From: Blautia sp. SC05B48
GTDB taxonomy: Bacteria > Bacillota > Clostridia > Lachnospirales > Lachnospiraceae
Length of the DNA: 64,000 nt
NCBI RefSeq assembly: GCF_005848555.1
Contig: NZ_CP040518.1
Span: 682,001 to 746,000 of the forward strand
Direction: 5' to 3'
Below the pieces are notes generated by a model. That model ran no database searches and was not told the DNA's origin. It saw only the letters and a list, made by a program, of their open reading frames with translations. A program made the position numbers and the translations under genes. This document shows positions 31,066-64,000 of this stretch, piece after piece; positions within the stretch are counted from its first letter, which is position 1, and each line of letters opens with the position of its first letter.

Positions 31066-31099
31066 TGAAAAACTTACTAAATTTCTGATTATCTTTTCA

Positions 31100-31229
31100 T
31101 AAGTTGGTAAATGCCGATATATCCCGTATTTTAGGGCTTTATCGGTATTTTCTTTTCGGAAGATACCTTGCATAAGCTGGCATTTACCAGCATGAAAATG
31201 CAACCAAAAGTAGTAAATGAGTAGTAAAT
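31100..31229. repeat. ICE right-end repeats: inverted pair and tandem arm-type sites
   Basis: An inverted pair, GTTGGTAAATGCC (31,103-31,115) and GGCATTTACCAGC (31,169-31,181), matches at 12 of 13 positions. Next to int are two direct copies of AGTAGTAAAT (31,209-31,218 and 31,220-31,229), spaced 11 bp, one helical turn. Tn916 Int binds short repeats of this kind inside the element ends with its N-terminal domain, so these are probable Int arm sites; the inverted pair may be Xis or Int related (inference). Confidence 0.6.
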
Positions 31230-32433: not shown

Positions 32434-32510
32434 AGTGTAAAGCTCCTTTCCGTCATGGAATGAGCCGTGATACGCTACTAATATTATACCATATCTACGG
32501 CTCAATGACA

Positions 32511-32714
32511 TTAGATTTCGTCCAATGTATCTATGATTTTTTCAAATTGTTTTCGCTTAATCTGAATACGATTACCGTTCACGATAACCCAGCCAGCGTC
32601 AAGATTTTCTTCGGCTAATTTACGCAATTTCTTTTCGCCAATACGGAAGTATTTAGACGCTTCTTCAATCGTCAGCGTATATTTTTCCCAGATAGGCACA
32701 TCAGTATTGTTCAT
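32511..32714 (-). CDS. xis: Tn916-type excisionase
   Basis: 67 residues, winged-helix DNA-binding protein: [31 protein letters not shown], then [22 protein letters not shown]. This is nearly the Tn916 Xis sequence from memory. It bends DNA at the element ends and promotes excision. Located directly before int; an AAAGGGGG stretch precedes ATG. Confidence 0.95.
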
Positions 32715-49251: not shown

Positions 49252-52200
49252 CACTCCACCTCATTTCTCTGTACGGGCGGTCTGGTATCAAAGGCGTGTA
49301 GCAGTTCTTCAAAGACGGGGTGTATCTGTACCACACCGACACGCCCGTATAAGTCCTGCAATAAACATTGTCCGTTTTCCAAATCACGCAAGCGTTTCTG
49401 GTTGTTTTCATCGTCCTTGTCGATACCGAAAAATTCTAAGGTCTGCTTTATCTCGTTTATATCCGTGCTTCTAAAGGCAAATTTCAAGCCGATATTGTTT
49501 TTCAGACTTTCCTTTGAAACATCATAGGCAGACTGGGTAACAAAATAAACGCCTGCCTGCATAGCTCGTCCAGCACGAACCAGCTTGTTAGAGAGCGTTT
49601 CTCCTTGTGCCACATTTAAGAACGCCCACGCTTCATCAAGGTCTACAATCTTAAAAATGCTTCTGTCGCTGTGAATGAAGTCGAGTGCAAAGGTACTAAT
49701 CACAATCAGCATAGACACCGATAATAATTCAATGGTTGTGTATTCATTAAAAGTGGTGTCTTTATCTGGCAATACTAAGTCCGCTACTTGAATGATATTG
49801 AGCTGATTATCTAGGCTGATTGTATTTTTTACTGTCCCGTCTGAAAACAATAAATGTGCAAAATCATAGTTCGTAAAACTGGCAATATGATTTGCAATAT
49901 GGTTCGCAATCGGCGTATTTTCTTTCCGTAATTCTGTGATAACATTTAACAGCCCTCGGTGTTCGCTTTCAGATACATTGCTGATTGCACTAATAAGCAC
50001 AGGAAATTTATCTCCGTCACGGGTAGAGATACCCGTTAAGAATGTTAAAATTTCTTTTGCCAGCGTCGCTCCGTCCTCTTTGTCTTTCATAATCACAAAT
50101 GGGTCAAGAAGTCCTGCATTGTCCTTGTCGCTGGTAAGATTTACGATATTGATTTCATGGGCGATTTCTGGAAGTGTTTCTTTCCAGTTGCCACGCTATA
50201 GCGATAGGTAACTTTTTGATGTTATCTCCAAGTTTTCCCCCGCTTCACACCGTACATGAAACTTTCGCTTCATACGGCGTTCCATCATATCCAAATAGAT
50301 TTATAAGTTATTTCCCAGTTATTGTCTGGTATCCGTAATTCGTCCGTATTCTGTTCAGTTTTTTCTTCTGCTGACTATTAAGAACATAACCTTTTAACAG
50401 TGATTTTGCTTCGTCTGCTGATTCTGTTAGGATTGCCTTTGCAATGGGAATTTCCACAAATGCCAGATTAGAATATCTATCAAGGTTATCTCCTTTGTCT
50501 GATTTGTGAATACATATCAGAGTGGACGGAGTTCCTCGACGATTCATTACATAGCAGTTGCCTTGTTGTGCGATATATGCCGAAATACGATTGTCGTTAA
50601 ACTCTACGCTATCGGCAGGGTTTTCATTTTCCAACAACGCTCGGATTTCTTCTTTTGTTACAACTACAACGTCCTCATGCACCTTGTTTCTCCCTTGCTT
50701 TGTAAAATTACAAATATCTTGCGAGAAATTCATAGGATTTTTGTGTTGTACTCCTTGAATCGGCAATAGCGGATTATCCGCAATCATCACTATTTTTGTT
50801 TTTGGTCTGATTCCTTTTGTCCTGCTCTGAAATTCTGAACTTGTACTTTCAAATGGAACTGATTTTGCAATGTTCCTTAAACGGATTCGTATGGTCGGTA
50901 AGAGAGCGTAACTTACTTCTGTCAGGTTGTTATATACGTTAGTTGCTATGCAGTAGTAATTCTGCATACCGATAACTGTCAGATTATATCTGCTGATATT
51001 GAAGCCAGTCGTATGTCTGGCTATATCTTTTACCTTTAACTTTAGATTTGTTTTCGCTTTCTTTAATGCTTTTTGGTTCATATCTGTTTTGGCAACATAA
51101 CCGTGTTTCGTTCTTCCTTTTGGAATGACTTTGATTTTGAACCCCAGAAAATCTGATGAATTTTTCTTCAGATTTACTACCTTTGATTTCTCTGGACTGA
51201 TTTCTAATTTCAGCCTTTTATTAAGAAAATCTACGGTACTGTGGTAAAATCTTTGTGCTTCTCCATAGGTTGAACACATGATTTTAAAATCATCAGCGTA
51301 ACGTACAATAAAACCGCTTTTCAGTTTGGTATATTTCTTTGCGTATTGAAGCCACCCATTTTTACTGCGGTTCTTCGGCTGGAATGTTTCCCACTGACTG
51401 CTTACCCACCAGTCTAATTCATTAAGGACTATGAGGGAGAGCAGTGGACTTAACAGACCGCCTTGTGGCGTTCCTTTTTCTGGGACACCCTCGCCGTCAA
51501 TTTCGGCTTTCAGCATTTTGCTGATAATGCAAATCAATCTTTTATCCCGAATACCAAGTGTCCAGATTTGTTTTAATAGTTTTCCATGATTGACATTATC
51601 GAAAAATCCTTTAATGTCTACGTCAACACAGTAATGATATTTTGATAAATTTATCAGTGTCGTTACTCTGCTGACTGCATGGTGGGCACTTCGATTCGCA
51701 CGGAATCCATAGGAATGATTATGGAACTTTGGTTCGCATATCGGCTCTAGGACTTGCAGGATACATTGTTGTACCAGCCTGTCCCAGATACACGGAATCC
51801 CCAATGGACGCATTTTATCGCTCCCAGCTTTTGGAATGAAAACACGTCTGACTGATTTGGGGCGGTAGTTGCTAAGGCTTTCCCGAACGGTAGCAACAAT
51901 CTCAGCATTGCTGAGTTGTTTTATATCGTCTATCGTCATTCCATCCGTTCCAGCCGTTTTACTGCCACTGTTTGATTTCAGATTACGGTAAGCTAAACAA
52001 ATATTTTGTTCCGAACCAATAATTTCAAGTAACTTATAAAAGTTATTACCGTTCTTGCTCTGTGCGTATAACTCGTCATAAATATGTTGCATATCATAAT
52101 ACTCGTTATAGCGGAGCTTGTTTTTCTTTAGCATGGTCTGTACCCTCCTTGTTTGCAGGAGCAAGTACATCTCTTAGTCTTACTCGAACCCATACCATTT

Positions 52201-54381
52201 TTCTTAGTAATTCTATTCTTCATATGACTAGTGGCTATCCCTCCACCGCTTGTTATCACGGTTTCATAGGTACTGTGCCACCACTCTCACTGACATTAAC
52301 ACACCTTATATCATTGCTAATCTCACAATAACTTTCTGATGTGAACACTTCACAGACAGTAAAATCTCCATGTTGTCAGCTTTCAACGTTCCAAACACAC
52401 TATCTGTACATATATCCTTAGGTTTCCTCTATAAGCCTGCTACCTTGATAACGCCTTTAACGTTATATGGATTTTCATAAATGCGGAGTCTTACTCACCC
52501 ACAGTAGCGACACTGTTTGTGTCACTGGACATTTCTATCCAGCCCCGATATAGACCTGTACATTCAAGGATTCGTCAGTAGACCTCTCATCTACATTCTA
52601 ACCATAGATATTTTATAGACTTCCGGCATATAGGACACAACGCCCACCTCTGGGAATCTTTCGTCAGCATTATCTGTTACGGTGTCTGTCTGCCGACTTC
52701 ACCGAGCTTCTGACAGAGCCTTGTTTACTCAAGTTTCTGCCAGTCGGAGTATTAAAGTAGCCTTTCAGGGCGTTACCCCGTCATTCGACTATTCGTGTGT
52801 TTAGTTCTCCAACACACATTAAATATTGATTTAATGAAGTGCTGTGCCTACTCTTTTCAAGTAGGAACGTTTCGCACCTGATTTTGGGTCTAAGATAACC
52901 GCTTGTCCCCCAAACAACACCGAATAATACACAAGAAGATTGTTGCAGAACGACTTTCCACCGCCAAGCGAACCGACAAAAGCAGAAGCAAGGGCATTTG
53001 TAACTGTGCCTTTTACGCCCTGCGAAGCTAAAGACGGTTGCAGGTACACATTTCTTCCCGTATCAACGGAATAGCCCATATAGATACCCGTAGTTTCCCC
53101 TAACTGCTGGGTCGCTCCAAAGCCAAGCCCTGCCAAGAAGTCTGATTTTACATACTGCACATAGTCATTGATATATCGCTTGCTGGCTGGAAGAAATTCA
53201 GAATGAAGCCCCAGCATATCCCCAGCAGGACGCACCAGCTTTACATTGAGGTCATCGTAAAAGTCCTTGACTTCATCACAACGGCGTTTCAGCTCGTCAA
53301 GATCGGGTGCAGACACCCGTATCACGTAGCTTAACTTATACATACTTTCTTTGCTCTGGTCTAAATCGGTTTCCAGCTCGTCCACGCTGTCTAATGCGTC
53401 CACCACATTTGAGCTGGTTTCACTTCCTGCTTGATAAGCGTGATTGTCAAGGTCTTTCAATTCCTTTTTCTTATTGCGGACGGTTGTTAATGCTTTTCGG
53501 TTCTCCACGATTTCTACATTCATAGAAGTATCAACGGGGAATGTGAATTGCTGTTGCTGGAAATAGAAGATTTCACTTGACGGAAAATCAAGCTCCCCGA
53601 CAATCGCATTGACAGTAAAATAGGACACATAACTTTCCTTGTCCTCATGTTCCAATCTTAAATACCGCTGGCTTTCCTCAATCACACACCTTGTCGGACG
53701 GATAAGGTCGTAGTATTTTATCAGCGTTTCTTTCTGTAATTTCTTCTTCGGTAGCTGGTATTCATAATCTTCATAGGCGATACCGTCCCTGCCGTAAAGA
53801 TGTTCCATGAGATACCCAAAATCGTTGATTTCCAAGCGACGCACCTTAAAACGACGGGAGATTTTATTTTCCAGTAACTTTTCCATTTTCATGTAACGGT
53901 TGATTTCATCATTCGGCATGGAAACAAAGTCATTCATCAGCGTGTGGTTCACTTCATGGAGAAATTCCGTGAACGTCAGCCACGCCGATTTTTTGATGTT
54001 CTTCAGATTGAGCTGTTCTTCCGTAACCATGAGCTTAAAGCCAAGAAAAAAGCGGTAGTCCACTTGATTGTCCCCAATCATAGATACTAACGCTTCGGTC
54101 TGTTCGTCTATCTTCTGATAGGCAACTTCCTTTAATTTTCCAGTTACCAGCTTCTTTGACTGCTCCTGCATACTGCGGATTGAGCTTTCTGTGGCAATCT
54201 GCAACGCATGAATTTTACCCTCACGGGACTGTGCGATTAGCTGTCGAAAGCTGTCATGCACGATAAATTTCTGCTCTGCGGATAAGAAAGAATAGTTATA
54301 CGGTATCAGCTCATAGTAGGCGAATACCTCATTGTCCTTGTTCCAGACAAGGTTATTGTCAATATATTTTATCGGGAACAT
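49251..54381 (-). CDS. VirB4-like conjugation ATPase Orf16, split by a group II intron
   Basis: Exon 1 is 54381-52878 (1,504 nt) and exon 2 is 50197-49251 (947 nt). Joined, they give 2,451 nt, exactly 816 codons plus stop, close to the usual Orf16 length. Without splicing the frame ends 15 codons into the intron. The join restores DPKSERGNWKETLPEIAHEINIVN, the expected family sequence. Walker A GSLGGGKSF (about 470-478) lies in exon 1, and Walker B and the C-terminal motor (IVDLDEAWAFL, QSAYDVSKESLKNNIGLKFAFRS) in exon 2. It powers DNA or protein movement through the mating channel. Function depends on intron splicing. Confidence 0.94.
50247..50279 (-). ncRNA. Group II intron catalytic domain V
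   Basis: A short hairpin with arms GCCGTATGAAG and CATGTACGGTGT around a GAAA-type tetraloop, the strongly conserved catalytic domain of group II introns, about 50 nt before the 3' splice site. Confidence 0.85.
50308..52134 (-). CDS. ltrA: Group II intron-encoded reverse transcriptase/maturase
   Basis: 608 residues from ATG 52134 (GGAGGG upstream). Reverse-transcriptase blocks RPLGIPCIWDRLVQQCILQVLEPICEP, SYGFRANRSAHHAV, CVDVDIKGFFDNVNH, GTPQGGLLSPLLSLIVLNELD and the active site YADD (about 279-282). Domain X follows. The C-terminal part (CYVMNRRGTPSTLICIHKSDKGDNLDRYSNLAFVEI) resembles an HNH endonuclease region but lacks the usual His-His pair and second Cys set, so nuclease activity is doubtful. 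It promotes splicing and retrohoming of the intron. Confidence 0.95.
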   Translation of the reverse strand: MLKKNKLRYNEYYDMQHIYDELYAQSKNGNNFYKLLEIIGSEQNICLAYRNLKSNSGSKTAGTDGMTIDDIKQLSNAEIVATVRESLSNYRPKSVRRVFIPKAGSDKMRPLGIPCIWDRLVQQCILQVLEPICEPKFHNHSYGFRANRSAHHAVSRVTTLINLSKYHYCVDVDIKGFFDNVNHGKLLKQIWTLGIRDKRLICIISKMLKAEIDGEGVPEKGTPQGGLLSPLLSLIVLNELDWWVSSQWETFQPKNRSKNGWLQYAKKYTKLKSGFIVRYADDFKIMCSTYGEAQRFYHSTVDFLNKRLKLEISPEKSKVVNLKKNSSDFLGFKIKVIPKGRTKHGYVAKTDMNQKALKKAKTNLKLKVKDIARHTTGFNISRYNLTVIGMQNYYCIATNVYNNLTEVSYALLPTIRIRLRNIAKSVPFESTSSEFQSRTKGIRPKTKIVMIADNPLLPIQGVQHKNPMNFSQDICNFTKQGRNKVHEDVVVVTKEEIRALLENENPADSVEFNDNRISAYIAQQGNCYVMNRRGTPSTLICIHKSDKGDNLDRYSNLAFVEIPIAKAILTESADEAKSLLKGYVLNSQQKKKLNRIRTNYGYQTITGK

Positions 54382-54782: not shown

Positions 54783-54812
54783 AAAAGGACAGCCATTTTC
54801 AGACTGTCCCTT
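54783..54812 (-). terminator. Attenuator-like hairpin between ardA and orf17
   Basis: GGACAG / CTGTCC arms (54,787-54,792 and 54,804-54,809) with TTTT on the minus strand. It sits between the anti-restriction genes and the channel operon and could set their ratio. Confidence 0.5.
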
Positions 54813-54865
54813 AAAAGAGAAATACGCTGTCAGTAGCAACAATGCTTGTTGCTGATCTTCCAGCG

Positions 54866-55369
54866 TTAGTATGGTATCTCGCACATACCTCGGCTTGTTT
54901 CAATAAAGCAACCGCCCATATCCAAATCTCGCCCGTAGGCTTCATAGTCAATGTAGTTCTGTAAGCTGGGTGGAATGTCGCCAAGTGCCTGCAATTCGTC
55001 TATGTAGTAGTAGGCAACGTCTGTCATGGTTTCACAGTCGGGATAATAATAAATATCGTCCTTGTGTTCCACGACTTCTTCCAGCGTCCCGTAGTGGCTG
55101 ATAAATTCGTCCAGACACTCTACGATATAGTCGGGAAGTTCCTCTATCATTTCATACATCTCATTGAGTTCTTCAATGGAAACATACTCGCCAATCGCAA
55201 TCGGGAAGTTGTCGGTATCATGGATTGCGTATTCCTCATACTGTTCATTCAAGCCGATTTTTTCTTTCACATCTTCTTCGTCAATGGGGAACGTGAACCA
55301 AGCACCGACTAAATAACCCTCATTGTATTTACCAAGATTAGCAATATAAACCGCCATATCATCAATCAT
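54866..55369 (-). CDS. ardA: ArdA-like antirestriction protein (Orf18), copy 1
   Basis: 167 residues from ATG 55369 (GAGGTGG upstream). Very acidic, DNA-mimic type: AVYIANLGKYNEGYLVGAWFTFPIDEEDVKEKIGL, IDELQALGDIPPSLQNYIDYEAYGRDLDMGG. ArdA blocks type I restriction enzymes and helps incoming ICE DNA survive. Sits in the Orf18 position of Tn916. Confidence 0.92.
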   Translation of the reverse strand: MIDDMAVYIANLGKYNEGYLVGAWFTFPIDEEDVKEKIGLNEQYEEYAIHDTDNFPIAIGEYVSIEELNEMYEMIEELPDYIVECLDEFISHYGTLEEVVEHKDDIYYYPDCETMTDVAYYYIDELQALGDIPPSLQNYIDYEAYGRDLDMGGCFIETSRGMCEIPY

Positions 55370-55386
55370 AAGCACCACCTCATTTC

Positions 55387-55890
55387 CTACTCTGGCAGTT
55401 CAAAGATACCGTGTTCTGTTACTGAAAATTTCCCGTGTTCCTGCAAGTGAGAAGCGTAGGCTTCAAAATCAAAGTAATATTCTTGACAGTCCTCGGACAG
55501 ATGTTTGAACGTCGGGTCGTTCATCAGCTTTTGCCTTGCAACATCTATCATGCTTTTGCAGTCTGGATAAACGGTAATCACGTTCCTGCAAATATAAAGT
55601 GCTTCTAAATTCTCAAACACCGTAAGTAGTGATACATATTCTTCCTGCATATCACTTGAAAGCTGGCGGTACATAAAATCTAATTCGTTAAGCTGATACA
55701 CGCTTGTATGTTCGTGAACTTCATCAGCATAAGGCAACACCTTTTCGATAATGCGGTAATCCCCACTTTCTGCACCGATACCTAACTTTTCTTCAAACTC
55801 TGCAACATCTATCGGCAGGTCGAACCAGTATGATGTTGTTTCTTCGCCAGTTGTTCCTTTCGTTTCCACCAGCACCCTTGTTTCCTGCAT
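55387..55890 (-). CDS. ArdA-like antirestriction protein, copy 2
   Basis: 167 residues, acidic. It shares the ArdA plan with copy 1 (SYWFDLPIDVAEFEEKLGIG; YFDFEAYASHLQEHGKFSVTEHGIFELPE against DYEAYGRDLDMGGCFIETSRGMCEIPY) but differs at most positions. It begins 17 bp upstream of copy 1. The two are an old tandem duplication or separately acquired paralogues, and may target different restriction systems (inference). Confidence 0.85.
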   Translation of the reverse strand: MQETRVLVETKGTTGEETTSYWFDLPIDVAEFEEKLGIGAESGDYRIIEKVLPYADEVHEHTSVYQLNELDFMYRQLSSDMQEEYVSLLTVFENLEALYICRNVITVYPDCKSMIDVARQKLMNDPTFKHLSEDCQEYYFDFEAYASHLQEHGKFSVTEHGIFELPE

Positions 55891-56105
55891 TGTTCCTCAC
55901 GTCCTTTCTGTTGTTTCATCACATCTTTTATGGTCTGGTACGACATACCAAACACATACTTTGAAAAATCTTCTAACTGTCTTTCTTCATAGTCAGCAAG
56001 GTTCAGCCGTTTCATTTCATGCCACACCTTACGCTTGTAAGAGGGCAGGTCGGAAAGATAATCACAGCCGACTTTTGCCTGCATATCCTTAAAAATATCG
56101 TTCAT
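55809..56105 (-). CDS. Orf19-like small protein of Tn916 family
   Basis: 98 residues: MNDIFKDMQAKVGCDYLSDLPSYKRKVWHEMKRLNLADYEERQLEDFSKYVFGM, probably helical. The last 27 codons overlap the start of ardA copy 2 in another frame (82 bp), and that tail is compositionally odd (CRKQGCWWKRKEQLAKKQHH), so the true end may have been altered by the neighbouring gene. GGAG lies nine bases before the ATG. Confidence 0.7.
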   Translation of the reverse strand: MNDIFKDMQAKVGCDYLSDLPSYKRKVWHEMKRLNLADYEERQLEDFSKYVFGMSYQTIKDVMKQQKGREEQCRKQGCWWKRKEQLAKKQHHTGSTCR

Positions 56106-56190
56106 TTCATCACTCCAATCTGAAATTTTGGTAAGAAAAAAGCAGTCAATCCTAAGACTAACTGCTTTGTGTGTAGGGATATGAAATTGT
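56102..56190 (-). repeat. Cassette 3' module, copy A (89-bp direct repeat with terminator)
   Basis: Nearly identical (two differences seen) to 56,796-56,884. It contains the hairpin core AAGCAGT...ACTGCTT followed on the minus strand by TTTTTTC (terminator, core 56,135-56,166) and, on its far side, the ribosome site and start codon of the orf19-like gene. It lies directly after the GNAT gene. Confidence 0.85.
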
Positions 56191-56205
56191 AAACTAGATT
56201 GTTTG

Positions 56206-56679
56206 TTATAGATTTATAGTCATAATATATTCTTCGCTGTTTTCATCAACAACAAGAAAACCTGCTTTCTTATACATTTTTACTGCATAATTATTTTTCT
56301 GAACAGATAAGGAAATTTTTGAATAACCAAAAGATTTTTCCACTAACAATAATTGTTGCAATAATGAAGTCCCAATCCCTTGTCCTCTATACTTTTGAAA
56401 AACAGACATAGCAAGGGACGGTGTATCATTGTCAATGTGTCCGTAATCGTTCATTATTCGCACCCAAATAGCACCTACGACATTTCCTTGAACTTCCGCA
56501 ACTAAAGCCCTATCATCTTTTCGCTTTCCAAATTCAAAAACATATTCTTGTAATTCTGGACAGTTAATTATTGATTTAGGTGGTGGCTCAACACCGTCTG
56601 GAATATAAATTGCTTCATACAAAAAGTCATTGAGTAAATCATATTCTGCTTTTTTAATTTCCCTTATGATATAATCCAT
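56206..56679 (-). CDS. GNAT acetyltransferase (cassette A cargo)
   Basis: 157 residues. GNAT fold with acetyl-CoA motif FQKYRGQGIGTSLLQQLL (R/Q-x-x-G-x-G/A), VGAIWVRIMND as the beta-4 region and NNYAVKMYKKAGF near the end. Substrate unknown; small-molecule or antibiotic acetylation is possible but not shown. It has its own promoter (56,720-56,748) and ends before the shared terminator, unlike the overlapping transfer genes. Confidence 0.87.
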   Translation of the reverse strand: MDYIIREIKKAEYDLLNDFLYEAIYIPDGVEPPPKSIINCPELQEYVFEFGKRKDDRALVAEVQGNVVGAIWVRIMNDYGHIDNDTPSLAMSVFQKYRGQGIGTSLLQQLLLVEKSFGYSKISLSVQKNNYAVKMYKKAGFLVVDENSEEYIMTINL

Positions 56680-56719
56680 AACTTGACTCCTAATCTATTT
56701 TATCTTTTTTCATACCCCG

Positions 56720-56748
56720 ATTATACCATTCACATATAAGCACTACAA
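56720..56748 (-). promoter_or_regulatory. Cassette promoter A
   Basis: Minus-strand -35 TTGTAG, 17-base spacer, -10 TATAAT. Part of a module that aligns without gaps to the regions upstream of the hydrolase and of the small membrane protein gene. Confidence 0.8.
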
Positions 56749-56754
56749 CAAAAT

Positions 56755-56796
56755 TTTATGCTTCGATAATCTTGTTGAAAAGTTCTAAGAGTATAT
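56755..56796 (-). pseudogene. Fossil of the tcpD-like 3' end
   Basis: On the minus strand this reads DILLELFNKIIEA then TAA, against KDVLLELFNKIIGA at the end of the tcpD-like gene (57,586). No start or upstream part remains. It directly abuts 3' module B, which marks the joint of the tandem cassette arrangement. Confidence 0.8.
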
Positions 56797-56884
56797 CATT
56801 TCATCACTCCAATCTGAAATTTTTGTAAGAAAAAAGCAGTCAATCCTAAGACTAACTGCTTTGTGTGTATGGATATGAAATTGT
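56796..56884 (-). repeat. Cassette 3' module, copy B
   Basis: 89-bp repeat of 56,102-56,190 with the same terminator hairpin (core 56,829-56,860). It still contains the orf19 ribosome site and ATG, now followed by tcpD fossil and leading to no gene. Confidence 0.85.
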
Positions 56885-56887
56885 TTA

Positions 56888-57515
56888 TCAGACATATTGT
56901 TTGAAAAATACATTTAACTTTTGCCCTAGTAGTGTTGGGTTATCTGTATTTACTTCATGTCCTGCATTTTCAATAATAGCTATTTCTGCGTTTTCTATCT
57001 GTTGTTGCAATTCTAAAGAAGCTTTTTTATTTATCTTATCCTTATCGCCACAGACAACAAGTACCGAACATGATATTTTTTTCAGTTTATGTTTAAAACT
57101 AAGTTCCGTCATAGATTTGCATAGATTGATAAAATCTGTTTTCTGAAAGCCCATTTTTTCAAATGCTGAACAAGGCATAATACGGAATATCAGATTTTGC
57201 ATTTTTAACAGATACTTTGGCATTTCATATTGTTGTGCCTATTAACACTAATGAGTTCATTTTTTCTGGGTGTTCTATCGCATACTGCATAGCAAGAATA
57301 CCACCTAAAGAAAGTCCACAAATATTTAGCGGTTCTTCAAACTGTTCACAGTATGTTTCCAATGTCCGATACAATGTATCATAACATGGTGTTTTCCCAA
57401 AAAGCCAATCTGATAAATTAGGGCATAAAACTTCAAAATCATCATTGAATACTTTTACGGTATCACTCCAACTTTCAGAAGATTGTCCCAAACCATGAAG
57501 CATTATATATTTCAT
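56888..57515 (-). pseudogene. Alpha/beta hydrolase, single frameshift (cassette B cargo)
   Basis: The N-terminal part (57515-57225) has the HGLG oxyanion region (MLHGLGQSSESW) and nucleophile elbow GLSLGG; it stops after LVLIGTTI. The C-terminal part (57223-56888, MPKYLLKMQN...) supplies the acid and His regions (VVCGDKDKINKKA, ENAGHEVN). Removing one A in the run at about 57,228-57,236 gives IGTQYEMPKYLLK and one frame of about 208 codons. This is either a real inactivation or a sequencing error. Substrate unknown. Confidence 0.82.
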
Positions 57516-57549
57516 TCCATCACTCCTAGATACTGTGTTTCATATCCAC

Positions 57550-57578
57550 ATTATAACATTCGCATATCAGCACCACAA
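57550..57578 (-). promoter_or_regulatory. Cassette promoter B
   Basis: Minus-strand -35 TTGTGG, 17-base spacer, -10 TATAAT, in the same alignment as promoter A. It begins directly after the tcpD-like stop codon. Confidence 0.8.
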
Positions 57579-57585
57579 TAAAATT

Positions 57586-57807
57586 TTACGCACCGATAAT
57601 CTTATTGAACAGCTCTAACAGTACATCTTTCACACCGCCAGCATTGAATACCAAACCGACAGCAATCAAGGCAACTACCAAGAAGCCAATGAGCTTTGAA
57701 AACTCACGCTTGAACCCTAAGTAGATACCGATAACCACAATCGCCATAAGCACTAAGCTCTGTGCGTTTGATAAAAACCATTGATACAAATTGTTTCCGA
57801 AATTCAT
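57586..57807 (-). CDS. TcpD-like small conjugation membrane protein
   Basis: 73 residues with two helices (about 17-31 and 37-55) and a short amphipathic end (VKDVLLELFNKIIGA). Small proteins of this kind sit next to mobT in Tn916-like elements and are described as TcpD family. Its stop partly lies within the promoter module for cassette B. Confidence 0.78.
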   Translation of the reverse strand: MNFGNNLYQWFLSNAQSLVLMAIVVIGIYLGFKREFSKLIGFLVVALIAVGLVFNAGGVKDVLLELFNKIIGA

Positions 57808-57808
57808 G

Positions 57809-57943
57809 TTATTTGTCCTCGCTTTCTTCTAATTGTTTCATTTCATAGTCAGCTTCTTTGCCGACATTCAAAATACACATCAAGACTACGCCGATACCCA
57901 TTCCCATAGATACCAGCAGGAAGTCTTTTAATAATACCCACAT
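57809..57943 (-). CDS. DUF3789-type small membrane protein
   Basis: 44 residues from ATG 57943 (AGGAG upstream): MWVLLKDFLLVSMGMGIGVV then a Cys and a charged tail ending KQLEESEDK. One membrane helix. Stop is 2 bp from the tcpD-like start. Such short frames are regular members of this ICE region; function unknown. Confidence 0.75.
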   Translation of the reverse strand: MWVLLKDFLLVSMGMGIGVVLMCILNVGKEADYEMKQLEESEDK

Positions 57944-57955
57944 TTTTTATCACTC

Positions 57956-59152
57956 CTAACTTTCTACTAAATCTTTTGCAGGGGTCGTCTGCTGTTTGAT
58001 TATCATTTCATGCTTTTCTGTGAGCTTTGCTTGCTGTTCGATTGTTTCCATGTAGTCTGTACCGTTTCCTTTATCAATCTTTTTCAGCATTTTCAAGGTC
58101 GGTGCTACCTGCCTTTGTACCCACCGCAATGTACGGTCTAAGGTGTAAGGCTCTGGCTTTGTCGTCAGCTTCAGACTTTGCCGATTATCGCCGATAAACC
58201 AAGCCCAGCGGTCATTGAGTTTCCAGTCATTTTTTCGCTTGTCTGGTTCTTCATCAACAAACCGCACATACTGGTTGATAATAGAAAAGGCGGTCTGTTC
58301 TGCGTCATAATAGGTCAGCAAATCTCGTACTGCATAATAGGCACGTTCATTGCGAAGTCGTATCTCAAAACGGTTGATAATGTCGGCTTCTTCAAGCGGT
58401 GTCCCTAACTTGACGTACTGCTCATAGTCCTTTTCATAGATACAGAAATACACATCTGATTTCAGCGAACCAAGATAAAGGGTACGTCCCATATATTCTC
58501 TGTCGTCCTCTCTGTGCTTGATAAGCTCGCCCGACTGATAAAACTTATAGCTTCTGGACTTTCCAATATATTCCTGTTTTCTGCATTTTTCCGCAAGCTC
58601 TGGAATATCTAAAATGCCCGTATGGTCGTTGATAGCAAGGTCGATACGCTTCATCACGCCACCGTCTACGAGTGCGTCCATGAGAAAGTCATACCAGCTT
58701 CTTTGTTGTGCTAACAGGTAACTTTCAAACTGCCTGCAACCACGCCCCTTTAACTCTAAAAGGACACCTTTTTCTTCGTCAGCCGACGTATAGATAAAGA
58801 TGTCCCCTAAAGAATAATGCTCCGTATAACTGTAACGTCCGTAATCTTCATGGAGCATATAATTGATATTCAGTTTTAATATATCTTTGATGATGTGCTG
58901 TATATCCAGCGTGGGAAAACGAATTTTCACATAATCAAACAGCATGGTAAGCGGTGCTTCTGGATTGAACCTTGCCAGTTCCTTATGCAAAGTTTCCAGA
59001 AGTTCCTTTGACGGCTTCATTTTTCCGCTTTCTATCTTGTTGAGATATTCCCTTGTGATACCCGAAGCCACCGCCAACCTGCCTTGTGAGATACCGTAAG
59101 CAATCCGTTTCTCCCGTAATTCTTTTATCCATTGTTCTTCATTCAGAACCAT
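57956..59152 (-). CDS. mobT: MobT relaxase (Orf20), Rep_trans family
   Basis: 398 residues. N-terminal helix-turn-helix (about 8-56: LREKRIAYGISQGRLAVASGITREYLNKIESGKMKPS) and a replication-initiation type nicking domain (LLELKGRGCRQFESYLLAQQRSWYDFL, MKRIDLAINDHTGILDI, TLYLGSLKSDVYFCIYEKDYEQ). MobT nicks oriT and binds the 5' end for transfer and rolling-circle replication. oriT lies just upstream (59,230-59,396). The stop and the next start are 13 bp apart. Confidence 0.95.
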   Translation of the reverse strand: MVLNEEQWIKELREKRIAYGISQGRLAVASGITREYLNKIESGKMKPSKELLETLHKELARFNPEAPLTMLFDYVKIRFPTLDIQHIIKDILKLNINYMLHEDYGRYSYTEHYSLGDIFIYTSADEEKGVLLELKGRGCRQFESYLLAQQRSWYDFLMDALVDGGVMKRIDLAINDHTGILDIPELAEKCRKQEYIGKSRSYKFYQSGELIKHREDDREYMGRTLYLGSLKSDVYFCIYEKDYEQYVKLGTPLEEADIINRFEIRLRNERAYYAVRDLLTYYDAEQTAFSIINQYVRFVDEEPDKRKNDWKLNDRWAWFIGDNRQSLKLTTKPEPYTLDRTLRWVQRQVAPTLKMLKKIDKGNGTDYMETIEQQAKLTEKHEMIIKQQTTPAKDLVES

Positions 59153-59229
59153 ACCCCCAATCTGTAAAGTGTGAAGTTTTTTAAGGCGACTTCACAACTG
59201 ATTTTTACTAGGAAATCATGCCAGAAGCC

Positions 59230-59396
59230 TTATGTTTCCTATGTTTTTTGTCTATTGTCTATTTGCAAACGTACCCCTCTGTTAGATACCGAGGGGTTCA
59301 TCAGCAGAGCAGGGACAAGCCCTGCTCTGCAAAACGGCTTCCACGGTCGTATTTGCTCCGCCGACCGTTCCTGCCGTTGTGCAGGCAGAACTTATC
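59230..59396 (-). other. oriT region with stacked inverted repeats
   Basis: Between mobT and the next gene. A palindrome with arms ACCCCTC (59,273-59,279) and GAGGGGT (59,291-59,297) contains CTAACAG on the minus strand, matching the known ICEBs1 oriT design of C-run, CTAACAG, G-run. Next come a perfect 11-bp stem GCAGAGCAGGG/CCCTGCTCTGC (59,304-59,330), a 7-bp stem ACGGTCG/CGACCGT (59,343-59,368) and CCTGC/GCAGG. In Tn916 oriT has this position. Confidence 0.85.
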
Positions 59397-59813
59397 CTAC
59401 CTGTTCATACCAATGTAAACCATGATGAATGAAACATCAGCGGATAAACATAAATTTAATGTTTCTTCTGATATTTCACTTTTACGGATAGGGTCTGTTT
59501 CCAGAAAAGACTTATCAAGCAATTCAAAAACAAAATCAATCTGGCTGTTGCAAGCCGACTGTTTTCTATTTAAGCGTATCAAGAACAAATCGGGCATGAA
59601 GTTTTTTTCGTGAATTGCATTTTCAAGAATAGTATCAGCTTTTTTCTCGAACTGATGTTTTGGATTACATTTAAAATCGTGATAACGTTTCTGCACAAAT
59701 CCCTCGCAATCGGCTAGAAAATCTCCATAATTGATACAGATACATTTTACGCTCTTAGCTTTCTCGTCTTTATCATCTGATTGTATTATTTTATTGATTT
59801 CTTTTATTTCCAT
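59397..59813 (-). CDS. Unknown protein between oriT and tcpA
   Basis: 138 residues, soluble: KSVKCICINYGDFLADCEGFVQKRYHDFKCNPKHQFEKKADTILENAIHEKNFMPDLFLIRLNRKQ, then DFVFELLDKSFLETDPIRKSEISEETLNLCLSADVSFIMVYIGMNR. I do not recognise the family. Its stop lies at the oriT edge, and it ends 4 bp after tcpA, so it is co-transcribed with tcpA. Tn916 has no gene here, so this is an addition. Confidence 0.7.
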   Translation of the reverse strand: MEIKEINKIIQSDDKDEKAKSVKCICINYGDFLADCEGFVQKRYHDFKCNPKHQFEKKADTILENAIHEKNFMPDLFLIRLNRKQSACNSQIDFVFELLDKSFLETDPIRKSEISEETLNLCLSADVSFIMVYIGMNR

Positions 59814-59816
59814 GAG

Positions 59817-61199
59817 TTAGTTCTCCTTTCCTTGTTGTTCTGGCATGACTTGTCTTTCTTGTGCAAGCCTGCCGATTGTTTGTAAAAAGTCATGTCCTTT
59901 CGGGACTAAAGGCGTGTAAAACTCACTGATAACGCTTGTTCCCACATCACAATAACCACGCCCCTTGATACGCTTCTGGAAAAACTGCTTTTTCACATCT
60001 GAACCGAACAGCATACCATAACCTAATTCGCTGATACGCCCCAATCCCACACGGAAATTGAAATTATCTCTGATACCGTCCGAGAAATACTTTGCGTCTG
60101 GACGCTGGCAGGCAACGATAAGGAAATATCCTGCTTGTCGTCCCAACATAACGATTTTCTTTAACTGGCTAAGTAAGCCCACGCTTTCTTTCGTCCCAAG
60201 CATTTCAAAAAATGCTACATATTCATCAAAGATAAGAAAGCAGGGTGGCAGTCCCAGATAGGCGTAGTTTTCGCCCGTCTTATAGTTTGGGTGTCGCTTC
60301 ATTTCCTCACTTCGCTGTACCATGCCCTCATAAAAGGCATTGACGCAATCTATCATTTCTTCTTTGGTGTGATACACATTTCCCATAACTGTTCCCAAGT
60401 CTGCTAAGTCTGAATTTTTTGGGTCTAAGATGTAAAGGACAGCGTTGGTATGCAGTAAGGCTTCAATGAGCGTCAGCAGGAAATAGGTTTTACCGCCACC
60501 AGTTCCACCAGCAATCAGAGCGTGAGGAAGTGCGTCATATTCCCAGACAAGATTTTTCATCAGTCTAAGACAGCCATTTTCTGCCCGTACTTCATCAATA
60601 GTAATGCGGTTCGCTATCATATCATAAAGCAGGGTATATTCGATATAACCGTCATGCAAGGTCTTGTCGGTCAGTTCACAATACAAGCCACTTTCCAATT
60701 TATCCTCTAACCGTAAAAGCTGGTCTTGATATTTTCCCAGCGTAATTTCACAGCAGATATGAAGCAGTCCCTTTTCCATTTGATAATAAATCTTTGGAAA
60801 CCAGACGATTTTTTCCCTTGATCTGCTTTGCAGGTCAGTAAAAAAACCGCTGTCTTGCACGGTATCGGCTTCATACCACTTATTTTCCAGTATCATTCTT
60901 GCCAGCTTTTGACGGTGCAGGAGCTTCTTGAAACTGTCGTAACAGAAGCGGTAATATAGAAAAGCGACCAATGCACAAACACCAGTCGCTATCAGTATAG
61001 TTATGAAGTTGTAAGGGGAAAGCGTCAAGCCGTTTTCTAACAAGCTGAAATGCTCCCAATCGGTACGCATGAGCTGTTTTATATTCAGTAGCAGAAGAAC
61101 CGCCACAAACACAAACAGAAGTGTCCCTATGGAAAAACGGTAAACAAGGTGCTTGTCGCTGGCTCTGATACGGTGTCCTTTGTTCCAAATCTTACGCAT
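59817..61199 (-). CDS. tcpA: TcpA/FtsK-like coupling ATPase (Orf21)
   Basis: 460 residues. Two helices (about 22-42 and 64-84), then an FtsK/SpoIIIE motor: Walker A GGTGGGKTY (231-239), Walker B CFLIFDEYVAF, and VACQRPDAKYFSDGIRDNFNFRVGLG. It brings the MobT-bound DNA strand to the channel. Located upstream of oriT and mobT as in Tn916. Confidence 0.95.
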   Translation of the reverse strand: MRKIWNKGHRIRASDKHLVYRFSIGTLLFVFVAVLLLLNIKQLMRTDWEHFSLLENGLTLSPYNFITILIATGVCALVAFLYYRFCYDSFKKLLHRQKLARMILENKWYEADTVQDSGFFTDLQSRSREKIVWFPKIYYQMEKGLLHICCEITLGKYQDQLLRLEDKLESGLYCELTDKTLHDGYIEYTLLYDMIANRITIDEVRAENGCLRLMKNLVWEYDALPHALIAGGTGGGKTYFLLTLIEALLHTNAVLYILDPKNSDLADLGTVMGNVYHTKEEMIDCVNAFYEGMVQRSEEMKRHPNYKTGENYAYLGLPPCFLIFDEYVAFFEMLGTKESVGLLSQLKKIVMLGRQAGYFLIVACQRPDAKYFSDGIRDNFNFRVGLGRISELGYGMLFGSDVKKQFFQKRIKGRGYCDVGTSVISEFYTPLVPKGHDFLQTIGRLAQERQVMPEQQGKEN

Positions 61200-61223
61200 A
61201 AATCGTTCACTCCTTTCTGGGTA

Positions 61224-61257
61224 TGAAAAAAGCAGTCAATCCTAAGACTAACTGCTA
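61224..61257 (-). repeat. Cassette 3' hairpin, copy C
   Basis: Carries the same terminator core as modules A and B (identical over about 30 bases, AAGCAGT ... ACTGCT with poly-T on the minus strand), at a different site: just upstream of the tcpA ribosome site and downstream of the 161-residue membrane gene. Confidence 0.85.
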
Positions 61258-61290
61258 AAATAATATAACTGTTTATTTGGGCGAAACGTA

Positions 61291-61776
61291 TTAGAGTAAA
61301 CTTTTCTCTTTTAACATTTCAAGAAATTCTTTATATCCAACACAGTCGCAAGAAACTGTACAAATTTTTTTGTTTCCTACAAATATTTTCAATCCTATTT
61401 GCTCTTTTTCTGTGCAACGGGAAATATCATTAAATGAAATTTCTCTTGTTCTTCCAACAGCAGGAGTAATACGCAAATTATTTCCGTCAATTACTACCTT
61501 ATGTCTTTTTAATGCCCACGCACAAAATTCAATCAATAGAACAAAAATAGCAAAAACAACAGAGTGTCCCACCGTATTATCAAATCCCATGAACAATCCT
61601 AAAGCTATTGCAATTCCTACCATTATCAATGAACAAATATGACATACTGTTTGATAGGCGTGTGATACAAAAACAGTATTTGTGAATTTTTCTTTTTTAG
61701 TTGCTTTTTGTGTCTTATCTAATACGAGAGATATAATAGGGACAACGAATACAGCAAATATAATAGCTCTTATCAT
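61291..61776 (-). CDS. Small membrane protein with PH-like domain (cassette C cargo)
   Basis: 161 residues from ATG 61776 (AGGAG upstream). Three helices (about 2-19, 44-65 and 69-90) and a C-terminal beta-rich domain (RHKVVIDGNNLRITPAVGRTREISFNDISRCTEKEQIGLKIFVGNKK) like the PH-type fold of DUF6560-like proteins. Own promoter (61,815-61,843) and the shared terminator. Not part of Tn916; role unknown. Confidence 0.75.
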   Translation of the reverse strand: MIRAIIFAVFVVPIISLVLDKTQKATKKEKFTNTVFVSHAYQTVCHICSLIMVGIAIALGLFMGFDNTVGHSVVFAIFVLLIEFCAWALKRHKVVIDGNNLRITPAVGRTREISFNDISRCTEKEQIGLKIFVGNKKICTVSCDCVGYKEFLEMLKEKSLL

Positions 61777-61814
61777 AAACAGCACTCCTTATAATTAAAT
61801 TTTTCATACCCATA

Positions 61815-61843
61815 TTATAACAGTTTTATATATCCGCTACAAC
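61815..61843 (-). promoter_or_regulatory. Cassette promoter C
   Basis: Minus-strand -35 TTGTAG, 17-base spacer, -10 TATAAT. It aligns without gaps to promoters A and B over about 45 bases but is more diverged. Confidence 0.75.
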
Positions 61844-61862
61844 GAAAATCTATCCAACAATC

Positions 61863-62246
61863 CTATTTCTTCGGCTGTCCCTGTGGTGTAGGGTTCTGTG
61901 GATTGCCTGCGTTCTGATTGCCTTTATTCTTCAACACAATATCCTCTGCCTTTACATACCAGTCCACATCTGCACCCATATAGGTTTTTCGTGATACAGT
62001 ATCGGCTACGGGATTGACAAGTTCCACGACTGCATTGTACGGAAATTCTCTTAACGGTACTTCTGGCGGTACAGACACGGGGATAATTCCACCATGCAAA
62101 CTGCACTTCAAATCATAGATACGCTTTTTAAGCTGGGTACTCGGTGTCCCGTCCTCATTCTGTAAGAACACATCACGCACCGCTGTAAATTTTAATTCTC
62201 CAAATGTTTTCTCTTTGTCAATAACAAACCCGTTTGATAATCTCAT
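61863..62246 (-). CDS. YdcP-family protein Orf22 of Tn916
   Basis: 127 residues: RLSNGFVIDKEKTFGELKFTAVRDVFLQNEDGTPSTQLKKRIYDLKCSLHGGIIPVSVPPEVPLREFPYNAVVELVNPVADTVSR, with a Gln/Asn/Pro-rich tail. YdcP/DUF961-type proteins open the transfer operon of Tn916 and ICEBs1; in related elements they act as helicase processivity factors during ICE replication. Paired with Orf23. Confidence 0.9.
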   Translation of the reverse strand: MRLSNGFVIDKEKTFGELKFTAVRDVFLQNEDGTPSTQLKKRIYDLKCSLHGGIIPVSVPPEVPLREFPYNAVVELVNPVADTVSRKTYMGADVDWYVKAEDIVLKNKGNQNAGNPQNPTPQGQPKK

Positions 62247-62261
62247 AAATTCTTCACTCCT

Positions 62262-62588
62262 TTACTTTTCTTCAACTGCTACAATATCATCAGCAACTAA
62301 CACATAATCGGTATGTCCCATATCCCCGATTGCATAACCTCTGCCGTATAACTTCGGATTGACAAGTTTTACTTTCTGTTCATACTTGAACTTTTTTTCG
62401 CCAGCCTGCACGGGAATTTCTACCACAACATTTTCGCCTTTCTGTACGTCAGAATAAAGGTTATAGCTTCGTCTTGCTAAGACCCTGCGGTTATTTTTAT
62501 CTCTTTCAAAGACTGGCTCACTTTCGCCTGCAAATTCAAGAGTTCCAAAAGACTGTACCATATCTGGCACGACATATTTCATTTCCAT
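62262..62588 (-). CDS. YdcP-family protein Orf23 of Tn916
   Basis: 108 residues with the same DUF961 pattern as Orf22: VQSFGTLEFAGESEPVFERDKNNRRVLARRSYNLYSDVQKGENVVVEIPVQAGEKKFKYEQKVKLVNPKLYGRGYAIGDMGHTDYVLVADDIV. First gene of the transfer operon in Tn916, 15 bp before Orf22. Confidence 0.9.
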   Translation of the reverse strand: MEMKYVVPDMVQSFGTLEFAGESEPVFERDKNNRRVLARRSYNLYSDVQKGENVVVEIPVQAGEKKFKYEQKVKLVNPKLYGRGYAIGDMGHTDYVLVADDIVAVEEK

Positions 62589-62822
62589 ATTGTTTTACCT
62601 CGTTTCTTTCTATTTTTGATAAATTGATTGTGATTTCTTATTCTGGCGGTTTGGGAAGTACCAGCAATCCCACAGATAGTAAAGGGTAAAATCAATGCTT
62701 ACGCACCCTTGACTATCCGTGTTCTTGCAGGTTGTTGGCAGACAAGCCAGAATAAGCGGAAGTCTGCCGTTTGACAACTTCGGCGGAGAGCGTGATTTTT
62801 CTTTTCTCATACCGTTACCGCC
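62589..62822 (-). other. Upstream region of the orf23 transfer operon
   Basis: 234 bp. In Tn916 the transfer-operon promoter lies here. A 66-codon frame (62,810-62,610, MRKEKSRSPPKLSNGRLPLILACLPTTCKN...) begins 12 bp after the adhesin stop with only a weak GGCGG; it could be a small gene or leader, but I do not call it with confidence. I could not pick out a clear -35/-10 pair. Confidence 0.4.
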
Positions 62823-64000
62823 TTATGATTTTTTCATTTTACGGCGTTTGTAGAAGAAGATACCTGCCAGTCCAGCACCAGAGGTCAAAAGAAGTGCAAG
62901 CAGTCCGTAAAGGTTTGTGTTATCGCCCGTTTTGGGACTGTCGCTCGGTCTGTTTGGCTTTTCTGGTGTCGGTGGTGTTTCGGGTTTCTCTGGTTCTTTT
63001 GGCTTTTCCTTAAAGGTAATCGTCTGTCCCTTATCCTCAATATCCTTATGCTCGGTAACTTTCTTCGGATCGTCTGGATTGCTTAAATCGTACAATTCTT
63101 CAAAAGTTACAAGCTGTTTGCCGTCAAGGGAAGTAGCGTCAAGGGTAAAGGCAACTTCCACTTTCATAGTTTCGCTGTCAGCAGTAAAAGTGTAATCACT
63201 TTCCACACGTTTCCCATTGATAAGAAGCTCGGCATTTTCTTTTTTCAACATCTGCCAGCCCACCAGTTTGTACTGTGTACCGACTTCTAAGCCCTCTAAG
63301 GTTACGGTATCAATGATTGTTACCTCTTTTCCAGCTTCAAGCTCTTTGTTGCCGTCCTTATCGGTAGCAGTCGTATGAATTTTGATGATACGCTCTGTGA
63401 TAAGTACGGTCTGCCCGTCGTCCTCAATGTCTTTATGCTCCGCAACTTTCACGGGTTCGTCTGGATTGCTGAAATCATACAATTCTTCAAAGGTAACAAG
63501 GTTCTTGCCACCTAAAGCAGACGCATTGAATATATAGGAAATTTCCACTTTCATTTCTTCATCATCAGCGACAAAGGTATAATCGTTTTCTACACGTTTC
63601 CCGTCAATGATAAGCTCGGCGTTTTCTTCCTTTAACATCTGCCAACCTTTCAACTGATACTTTGTGCCTTTTGTAAGCCCGTTTAATTTGACAGTATCAA
63701 CGATTGTTACCTCTTTTCCTGCAAGGATAGTTTTTTCGCCGTCCTTGCTGGTCGCTGTGGTATGGATAGAGATTTCTTTTTCGTATTCATCAGTCAACGT
63801 TCCTAAATCAATCACAAGGTTATTTCTTGATACCACGATTTCAAAAGGTGGGATAAGTTCAAAGCCTTTGTTACTGTCGCAACGCATTTCTTCAATGATG
63901 TAGGTATCATAAGGTAATGCACCCTTGCTGTCGTCTGGTTCAGAAGTTCCAAACCACACACCGTCCTCGCTGGTCTTGCCTGCGTTGGTATTGTGCTTAT
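62823..64000 (-). CDS. VaFE-repeat sortase-anchored surface protein, C-terminal part (runs off window)
   Basis: At least 391 codons; the frame is open to the window edge, so the start is not seen. Two tandem beta domains of about 120 residues each carry IHTTATDKDGNKELEAGKEVTIIDTVTLEGLEVGTQYKLVGWQML and end VTFEELYDLSNPDDP, the VaFE/T-Q ester-type repeat of Gram-positive adhesins. After a Pro-rich wall spacer come the sorting motif SPKTGD, a hydrophobic helix and a KRRKMKKS tail. It probably mediates adhesion or mating-pair contact; it lies outside the Tn916 core. Confidence 0.88.
   Translation of the reverse strand, partial: KHNTNAGKTSEDGVWFGTSEPDDSKGALPYDTYIIEEMRCDSNKGFELIPPFEIVVSRNNLVIDLGTLTDEYEKEISIHTTATSKDGEKTILAGKEVTIVDTVKLNGLTKGTKYQLKGWQMLKEENAELIIDGKRVENDYTFVADDEEMKVEISYIFNASALGGKNLVTFEELYDFSNPDEPVKVAEHKDIEDDGQTVLITERIIKIHTTATDKDGNKELEAGKEVTIIDTVTLEGLEVGTQYKLVGWQMLKKENAELLINGKRVESDYTFTADSETMKVEVAFTLDATSLDGKQLVTFEELYDLSNPDDPKKVTEHKDIEDKGQTITFKEKPKEPEKPETPPTPEKPNRPSDSPKTGDNTNLYGLLALLLTSGAGLAGIFFYKRRKMKKS

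Follow-up and report, generated by a model that had tools for sequence, protein, structure and literature searches.

We analysed a window of 64,000 nt from Blautia sp. SC05B48 (Lachnospiraceae; assembly GCF_005848555.1, contig NZ_CP040518.1, positions 682,001 to 746,000 of the forward strand), which contains most of an integrative and conjugative element (ICE) of the Tn916 family. The minus strand of this ICE carries three cassettes, A, B and C, whose genes (cargo) encode a GNAT acetyltransferase, an alpha/beta hydrolase and a membrane protein, respectively (Table 1). An earlier reading of the sequence alone had proposed that these unrelated genes share one promoter module (TTGTRG, a 17-base spacer and TATAAT) and one hairpin core behind the gene, and both similarities went beyond what shuffled sequences produced. 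The best ungapped 45-mers of the three upstream regions were identical at 38, 34 and 32 of 45 positions in pairwise comparison, against maxima of 29, 31 and 30 in 2000 dinucleotide shuffles per pair, while the starts of 11 other genes on the ICE minus strand reached 27 at most. All three promoters are of the extended -10 type, with TG one base ahead of TATAAT. The hairpin core consists of 28 identical bases (56139-56166, 56833-56860 and 61229-61256), was never matched when the window was shuffled 100 times and folds into an 11-bp stem with a 4-nt loop, followed by a T-run (-13.6 kcal/mol). A search of Rfam over positions 55800-62300 returned nothing up to an E value of 1.

The cassettes occupy two sites in the transfer region. 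The sequence-only reading had placed one site between tcpA and orf22, which we confirmed, and a pair between orf19 and tcpD; the second site proved instead to be a tandem of the GNAT and hydrolase cassettes lying between a tcpD-like 73-aa gene and a 98-aa open reading frame (ORF) before ardA. We refer to the orf22-tcpA site, with one cassette, as slot a and to the site with two tandem cassettes as slot b. The genome contains six copies of the hairpin, three in each of two ICEs. The backbone of the second ICE (L007) is 92-97% identical to that of the first, and three different genes fill its two slots, encoding a Cass2/GyrI-like protein, a protein with a metallo-beta-lactamase fold and a third that resembles a hydrolase but does not reach the Pfam cut-off. 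The two ICEs could be aligned over window positions 54801-56190, 57542-59298, 59851-61256 and 61800-62998, with the cargo unaligned, and the alignment broke at the hairpin or at short arms that flank the cargo (56190 and 57542 in slot b, 61256 and 61800 in slot a). In Tn916-type copies whose tcpA is 66% identical (Enterococcus faecium DO plasmid, L158), orf22 and tcpA are separated by no more than about 30 nt, and the frame of promoter, arms and hairpin is lacking.

Species genomes of GTDB were then scanned with a degenerate form of the hairpin and IMG/VR with the exact one. The former yielded 84 stretches, judged by eye to come mostly from Lachnospiraceae and Erysipelotrichales-like Firmicutes, with one from Bifidobacterium. 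The hairpin was present in 3 of 61 genomes of relatives and in 11 of 392 genomes of an order sample (own genome counted in both), in five plasmid records (three from Enterococcus, one each from Clostridioides and Vescimonas) and, in two exact copies, in one viral contig of IMG/VR. After duplicates, recognised by the 60 nt ahead of the hairpin, had been removed, 97 hairpins with up to five mismatches remained, and 94 once the three with five mismatches had been dropped. A gene was found in front of 90 of these and none in front of the other four; the cargo formed 58 blastp clusters, some of them short or doubtful ORFs. Behind the hairpin the ArdA cluster was found 24 times and the tcpA cluster 23 times. 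A Pfam scan of 50 cargo proteins, representing 49 of the 58 clusters, brought 32 above the cut-off in 26 families as grouped by us, including dihydrofolate reductase, chloramphenicol acetyltransferase, nitroreductase, isochorismatase, NUDIX, VanZ, signal peptidase II, CAAX protease, pentapeptide repeat, PLD, SnoaL and several DUFs. PADLOC gave no match for the seven cargo sequences of the own genome (window and second ICE) or for two others; a PLD-like cargo (L089) matched its models DpdK, MkoC and DrmC. An error-free promoter was located within 400 nt of the gene in 25 of 55 cargo clusters (best member of each), compared with 1 of 2000 random pieces, 0 of 85 antisense pieces and 1 of 425 shuffles. 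A listing of the genes between the conserved ends in other genomes had been suggested by the sequence-only reading, and the many different genes that it contains support the idea of a standard cassette in which only the middle gene varies. Hairpin and promoter recur in other genomes and are not limited to the three genes of the window, a restriction that would have spoken against that idea.

Because the census relied on the hairpin, we also made a search anchored on tcpA. The 5' end of tcpA was matched in 19 of 298 genomes of the family (own genome included), with 24 matches in total, and a hairpin stood at tcpA in 20 of them, with up to four mismatches in 8 and diverged in loop or stem in 12. 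Among 18 distinct sense stems 193 of 198 cells paired, a proportion that, like the excess of G-U pairs, stems partly from selection, as only stems with at least 9 of 11 paired positions were kept and these were ranked by their similarity to the sense consensus. Since poorer stems had been excluded, the double changes observed, such as A-T to G-C, outweigh the pairing percentage as evidence. With a stable predicted stem-loop, a T-run and pairing kept through sequence change, the hairpin has the features of an intrinsic terminator.

The same cargo was found in different slots. One 145-aa cargo is present at 92-97% DNA identity in slots a and b and in related frames in Tn6218-like elements, which we call slot c, and a Cass2-like cargo occurs in slots b and c and in a fourth slot ahead of a 404-aa gene annotated as an XRE regulator. 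When cassettes from clearly different slots were paired, homology stopped about 30-37 nt past the hairpin start, an end point that is expected anyway because the hairpin is common to all slots. More telling is the promoter, whose type tracks the slot. Among the 48 cassettes over all slots, those of slot a had 9 a-like and no b-like promoters (4 neither), those of slot b 20 b-like and 3 a-like (4 neither), and those of slot c and other slots 5 b-like and 2 a-like (1 neither). Simple duplication of a single ancestor, which the sequence-only reading had named as a threat to its proposal, was ruled out: the cargo proteins are unrelated, one cassette stands at a separate site and the promoter type mostly follows the slot.

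Tandem cassettes were connected by a standard joint. We counted by hand 14 joints in 12 loci (14 of 28 tabulated rows qualified; some pairs share cargo, so not all are independent), each with the same 82-86 nt from the hairpin to the next promoter. The joint is a fusion in which a remnant of the 98-aa ORF, comprising its ribosome site and its start, is followed by roughly the final 35 nt of the tcpD-like gene. Four loci with standard joints (L013, L016, L053 and L091) terminate in slot c, outside the transfer operon, and the presence there of joints of the slot b type indicates that these units were probably derived from slot b of an ICE. As a separate observation, dfrF-type genes (L013, L016) and MGMT-like genes lie within such frames (L016 7400-9600, L013 1001-2408, L053 3395-4666) in Enterococcus and on other elements, and frames of this kind may help to explain the spread of dfrF with varied neighbours. 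In another locus (L028, 34-684) a cargo copy forms an in-frame fusion with the surface-protein gene normally found upstream, apparently through deletion of the intervening genes and the promoter.

These comparisons establish, at the level of DNA sequence, constant ends around changing cargo, the same cargo across slots and a standard tandem joint. They also bear on ordinary backbone conservation as an explanation, namely that an old promoter and terminator of the ICE persist while cargo came to lie between them through chance insertions and deletions and was kept by selection. Diverged ICEs that retain the hairpin before tcpA with paired changes are consistent with this, and many cassettes are without an arm or a recognisable promoter, as random joins predict. 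However, chance joins should set the border between constant and variable sequence at different bases for unrelated genes, and they account poorly for the same joint in 14 tandem pairs (some of them related) and for one cargo in three slots. We consider this explanation improbable.

The arms that flank the cargo are new in this analysis. ATGGRTATGAAR, directly after the -10 element, and YTTCATATCCATACACACAA, directly before the hairpin, are inverted copies of each other. Over unrelated cargo, conservation was mostly lost past about +30 on the left side (32 clusters) and before about -38 on the right side (57 clusters). Both arms occurred together in 19 cases, only one of them in 2 and 4 cases and neither in 7 (p = 0.003). 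One interpretation is that the arms mark where a mobile cassette ends: they would be short inverted repeats at which a recombinase captures cargo and moves it, in a gene-cassette system distinct from integrons. The drop of conservation just within both arms despite unrelated cargo, the switch of cargo at arms or hairpin between the two ICEs of the genome and the finding of standard-joint cassettes in other elements all agree with such a role. On the other hand, the only recombinase among the 10 ICE proteins scanned was the Tn916-type integrase (the neighbours of other loci lay outside the scan), and the promoter and terminator, which lie outside the arms, are constant, unlike what transposon insertions would leave. 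The kind of pairing between the arms also argues against this interpretation. In 21 cassettes, 252 arm cells comprised 216 Watson-Crick pairs, 26 G-U, 2 A-C and 8 other combinations, numbers that overstate the events because the cassettes are related; by hand count there were 6 kinds of G-U and 2 kinds of A-C, with arm-picking patterns that already permitted some of the letters concerned. The excess of G-U over A-C points to RNA and away from ends recognised in DNA by a recombinase, and mobile-cassette ends are in our view unlikely.

The alternative is that the arms work in RNA, the leader pairing with the 3' untranslated region (UTR) before the terminator and thereby closing the transcript, which would stabilise it or tune its translation. 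With one cassette taken per cluster, matched arms paired better than permuted ones, which did as well in 0 of 20000 permutations over 32 clusters, in 18 of 20000 over the 22 clusters with both arms and in 153 of 20000 when permuted within slot. Three columns contained double changes (TA17/GC2, GC16/GT2/AT1 and AT8/GT9/GC4), and by these alignments the predicted 12-bp arm core covaries. Complementarity between leader and 3' UTR was significant for this core and not for the outer part (1331 of 20000 permutations, 2170 of 20000 within slot), and pairing of the outer arms, although striking by eye, was dropped as unproven after it had failed the permutations. Folding of whole transcripts gave 9.0 expected arm pairs compared with 4.4 when the 3' arm was shuffled (27 of the 32 eligible cassettes), with a control that was itself high, exceeding 5 pairs in 10 of 27 cassettes versus 21 of 27 for the real sequences. 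Several points weigh against a role in RNA. With the usual transcription start, about 7 nt past the -10 element, the cargo mRNA would lack half of the 12-bp core, the relatedness of the cassettes and the tolerance of the arm-picking patterns reduce the force of the covariation, and cassette C, in which promoter, 5' arm and hairpin are present, has no recognisable 3' arm. We consider this role less likely than not.

Taken as a whole, the data are best accommodated by an exchangeable and insulated expression slot within the transfer operon of Tn916-family ICEs, with terminators that are bypassed by antitermination after excision, and we consider this likely. The fixed frame would consist of an extended -10 promoter, a 5' arm, cargo with its own ribosome site, a 3' arm and an intrinsic terminator, set at two sites of the transfer operon (slots a and b), with related frames in slot c. 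In the integrated ICE each cargo would be transcribed singly from its own promoter and halted at its own terminator, so that the transfer genes behind would stay off; as the sequence-only reading had suggested, we infer that expression of the cargo need not depend on the silent transfer operon. Because tcpA begins 31 nt behind the terminator of cassette C and no promoter was seen between them, the transfer transcript has to read through this terminator. Passage after excision would most likely be achieved by a processive antiterminator of the canT type, by analogy with Tn916. Cargo may move among slots through homologous recombination over the shared ends and the backbone, which would be the cheapest account of the exchange.

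Several observations speak against this slot model. Homologous recombination leaves the common joints of unrelated genes unexplained, and slot and promoter type were mismatched in 3 of 27 cassettes of slot b. Many frames are incomplete: just 32 of 58 clusters had a promoter with no more than one error and 37 of 57 a 3' arm, and part of the 58 clusters are the short or doubtful ORFs mentioned above. The identity of the hairpin in the census arises partly by construction, because the hairpin served as the query, and no hairpin was found at 4 of the 24 tcpA matches, two of which are short and may not be tcpA. Phage records searched with a 106-nt hairpin stretch gave no match. A broader version would turn the frame into a non-integron cassette system, with promoter, inverted-repeat arm, one cargo, matching arm and terminator as its unit, precise capture, tandem stacking, trade among ICEs, Tn6218-like elements and plasmids of gut Firmicutes, and arms that also pair in RNA; we regard this version as doubtful. 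If correct, the slot model explains how Tn916-family elements gain and express unrelated single genes with transfer undisturbed. Arms and hairpin together offer a short DNA signature by which such cargo, known or unknown, can be found by sequence search. The question that arises is what attaches new genes to the arms.

Table 1. Features of the three cassettes and the genes bordering slots a and b (window coordinates)
Feature	Position	Strand	Remarks
98-aa transfer-region ORF, downstream boundary of slot b	55809..56105	-	Pfam: no match
Terminator of cassette A	56135..56166	-	hairpin, then T-run
3' arm of cassette A	56167..56190	-	ACAATTTCATATCCCTACACACAA
Cargo A, GNAT acetyltransferase, 157 aa	56206..56679	-	Pfam PF00583, E 5.3e-15
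5' arm of cassette A	56706..56719	-	CGGGGTATGAAAAA
Promoter A	56720..56748	-	TTGTAG, 17 nt, TATAAT
Standard 86-nt cassette joint	56749..56834	-	begins within the T-run of terminator B
Terminator of cassette B	56829..56860	-	
3' arm of cassette B	56861..56884	-	ACAATTTCATATCCATACACACAA
Cargo B, alpha/beta hydrolase, two frames	56888..57515	-	N half 57225-57515, C half 56888-57223
5' arm of cassette B	57538..57549	-	GTGGATATGAAA
Promoter B	57550..57578	-	TTGTGG, 17 nt, TATAAT
73-aa tcpD-like gene, upstream boundary of slot b	57586..57807	-	Pfam: no match
tcpA (FtsK/SpoIIIE), downstream boundary of slot a	59817..61199	-	Pfam PF01580
Terminator of cassette C	61225..61256	-	hairpin to tcpA start, 31 nt
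Cargo C, membrane protein, DUF6560, 164 aa	61291..61785	-	Pfam PF20197, E 7.5e-11
5' arm of cassette C	61802..61813	-	ATGGGTATGAAA
Promoter C	61814..61842	-	TTGTAG, 17 nt, TATAAT
orf22 homologue (DUF961), upstream boundary of slot a	61863..62246	-	Pfam PF06125

The hydrolase of cassette B is split over two reading frames and thus looks broken in this ICE; when the halves were scanned separately, the N half matched PF00561 (E 3e-12) and the C half did not reach the Pfam cut-off, and the copy has probably lost its activity. The part of the ICE inside the window runs from the integrase gene (31243-32511) to a large surface-protein gene that spans 62823 to about 65945 in window numbering and extends beyond the right end. 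In a Pfam scan of 10 ICE proteins the integrase contained PF00589 and PF02920 ('DNA binding domain of tn916 integrase'), which identifies it as a Tn916-type tyrosine integrase. The minus-strand order of two DUF961 proteins, FtsK_SpoIIIE, Rep_trans and two ArdA proteins is that of Tn916, which we take to be orf23/22, orf21 (FtsK), orf20 (relaxase) and orf18 (ArdA), and the same order was seen in locus L163. The 73-aa gene is presumably tcpD-like, a name that goes back to the sequence-only reading. The ATPase gene of the ICE is in two parts (52831-54381 and 49251-50096) with a reverse-transcriptase ORF (50308-52170, PF00078) between them; the stretch that splits it is by its look a group II intron, so that splicing should be needed for transfer. 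Judged by eye, the ICE seems to have entered an operon for a sugar ABC transporter, where it separates the gene for the binding protein from those for the permeases (29743-31203; L164 4248-5932). Within tcpA there is a 12-bp stem-loop with a T-run (60963-60990), and similar ones were seen within tcpA of four relatives (L141, L144, L146 and L147). The genome also contains a third Tn916-like ICE (L166, G000:C1:398001-417900), whose tcpA is 84% identical and is preceded by a related hairpin with a 5-nt loop.

Comparison with known systems begins with integrons, whose cassettes are mostly promoterless, are read from one outside promoter, and have attC sites and an adjacent integron-type integrase. 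The frames described here resemble them in that their constant ends enclose small genes of many unrelated kinds, at times in tandem, and one cargo belongs to the Pfam family Cass2 ('integron-associated effector binding protein'). In contrast to integron cassettes, the frames have their own promoter (error-free in 25 of 55 clusters) and an intrinsic terminator, and the 10 ICE proteins scanned included no integron integrase, only the Tn916-type integrase and the reverse transcriptase. With the Tn916/Tn1545 family this ICE shares the integrase domain, two DUF961 proteins, an FtsK-like TcpA, a Rep_trans relaxase and ArdA, whereas Tn916 has no cassette between orf22 and tcpA. In Tn916 the transfer transcript passes internal and foreign terminators after excision by means of canT RNA (PMC11658703); the accessible text of that paper does not mention a shared promoter, arm and terminator frame around cargo. 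Tn6218 elements are small relatives of Tn916 that carry int, xis, rep and xre together with accessory genes that vary (PMC3914685). Arrays in slot c adjoin such genes in L015 (annotated), L016 (int, xis) and L053 (rep- and xre-like ORFs), a likeness drawn from the neighbouring genes of three loci; the available portion of the Tn6218 description gives variable accessory genes and no constant promoter, arms and hairpin around each (PMC3914685). In icaR of Staphylococcus aureus the leader of the mRNA pairs with its own 3' UTR, which, as far as the accessible part of the report goes, concerns a single gene, while here a common frame surrounds many genes and the pairing is predicted (PMC3868564). 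Our literature search, from whose reach most subscription journals lay outside, found no description of a common frame around each cargo, and none of the terms sought occurs in the accessible text of PMC8955417. Accessory genes as such are well known in Tn916-like, CTn and Tn6218 elements, to judge from the available parts of PMC3914685 and PMC3158075, and it is the shared promoter, arm and terminator frame around them that appears to be new.

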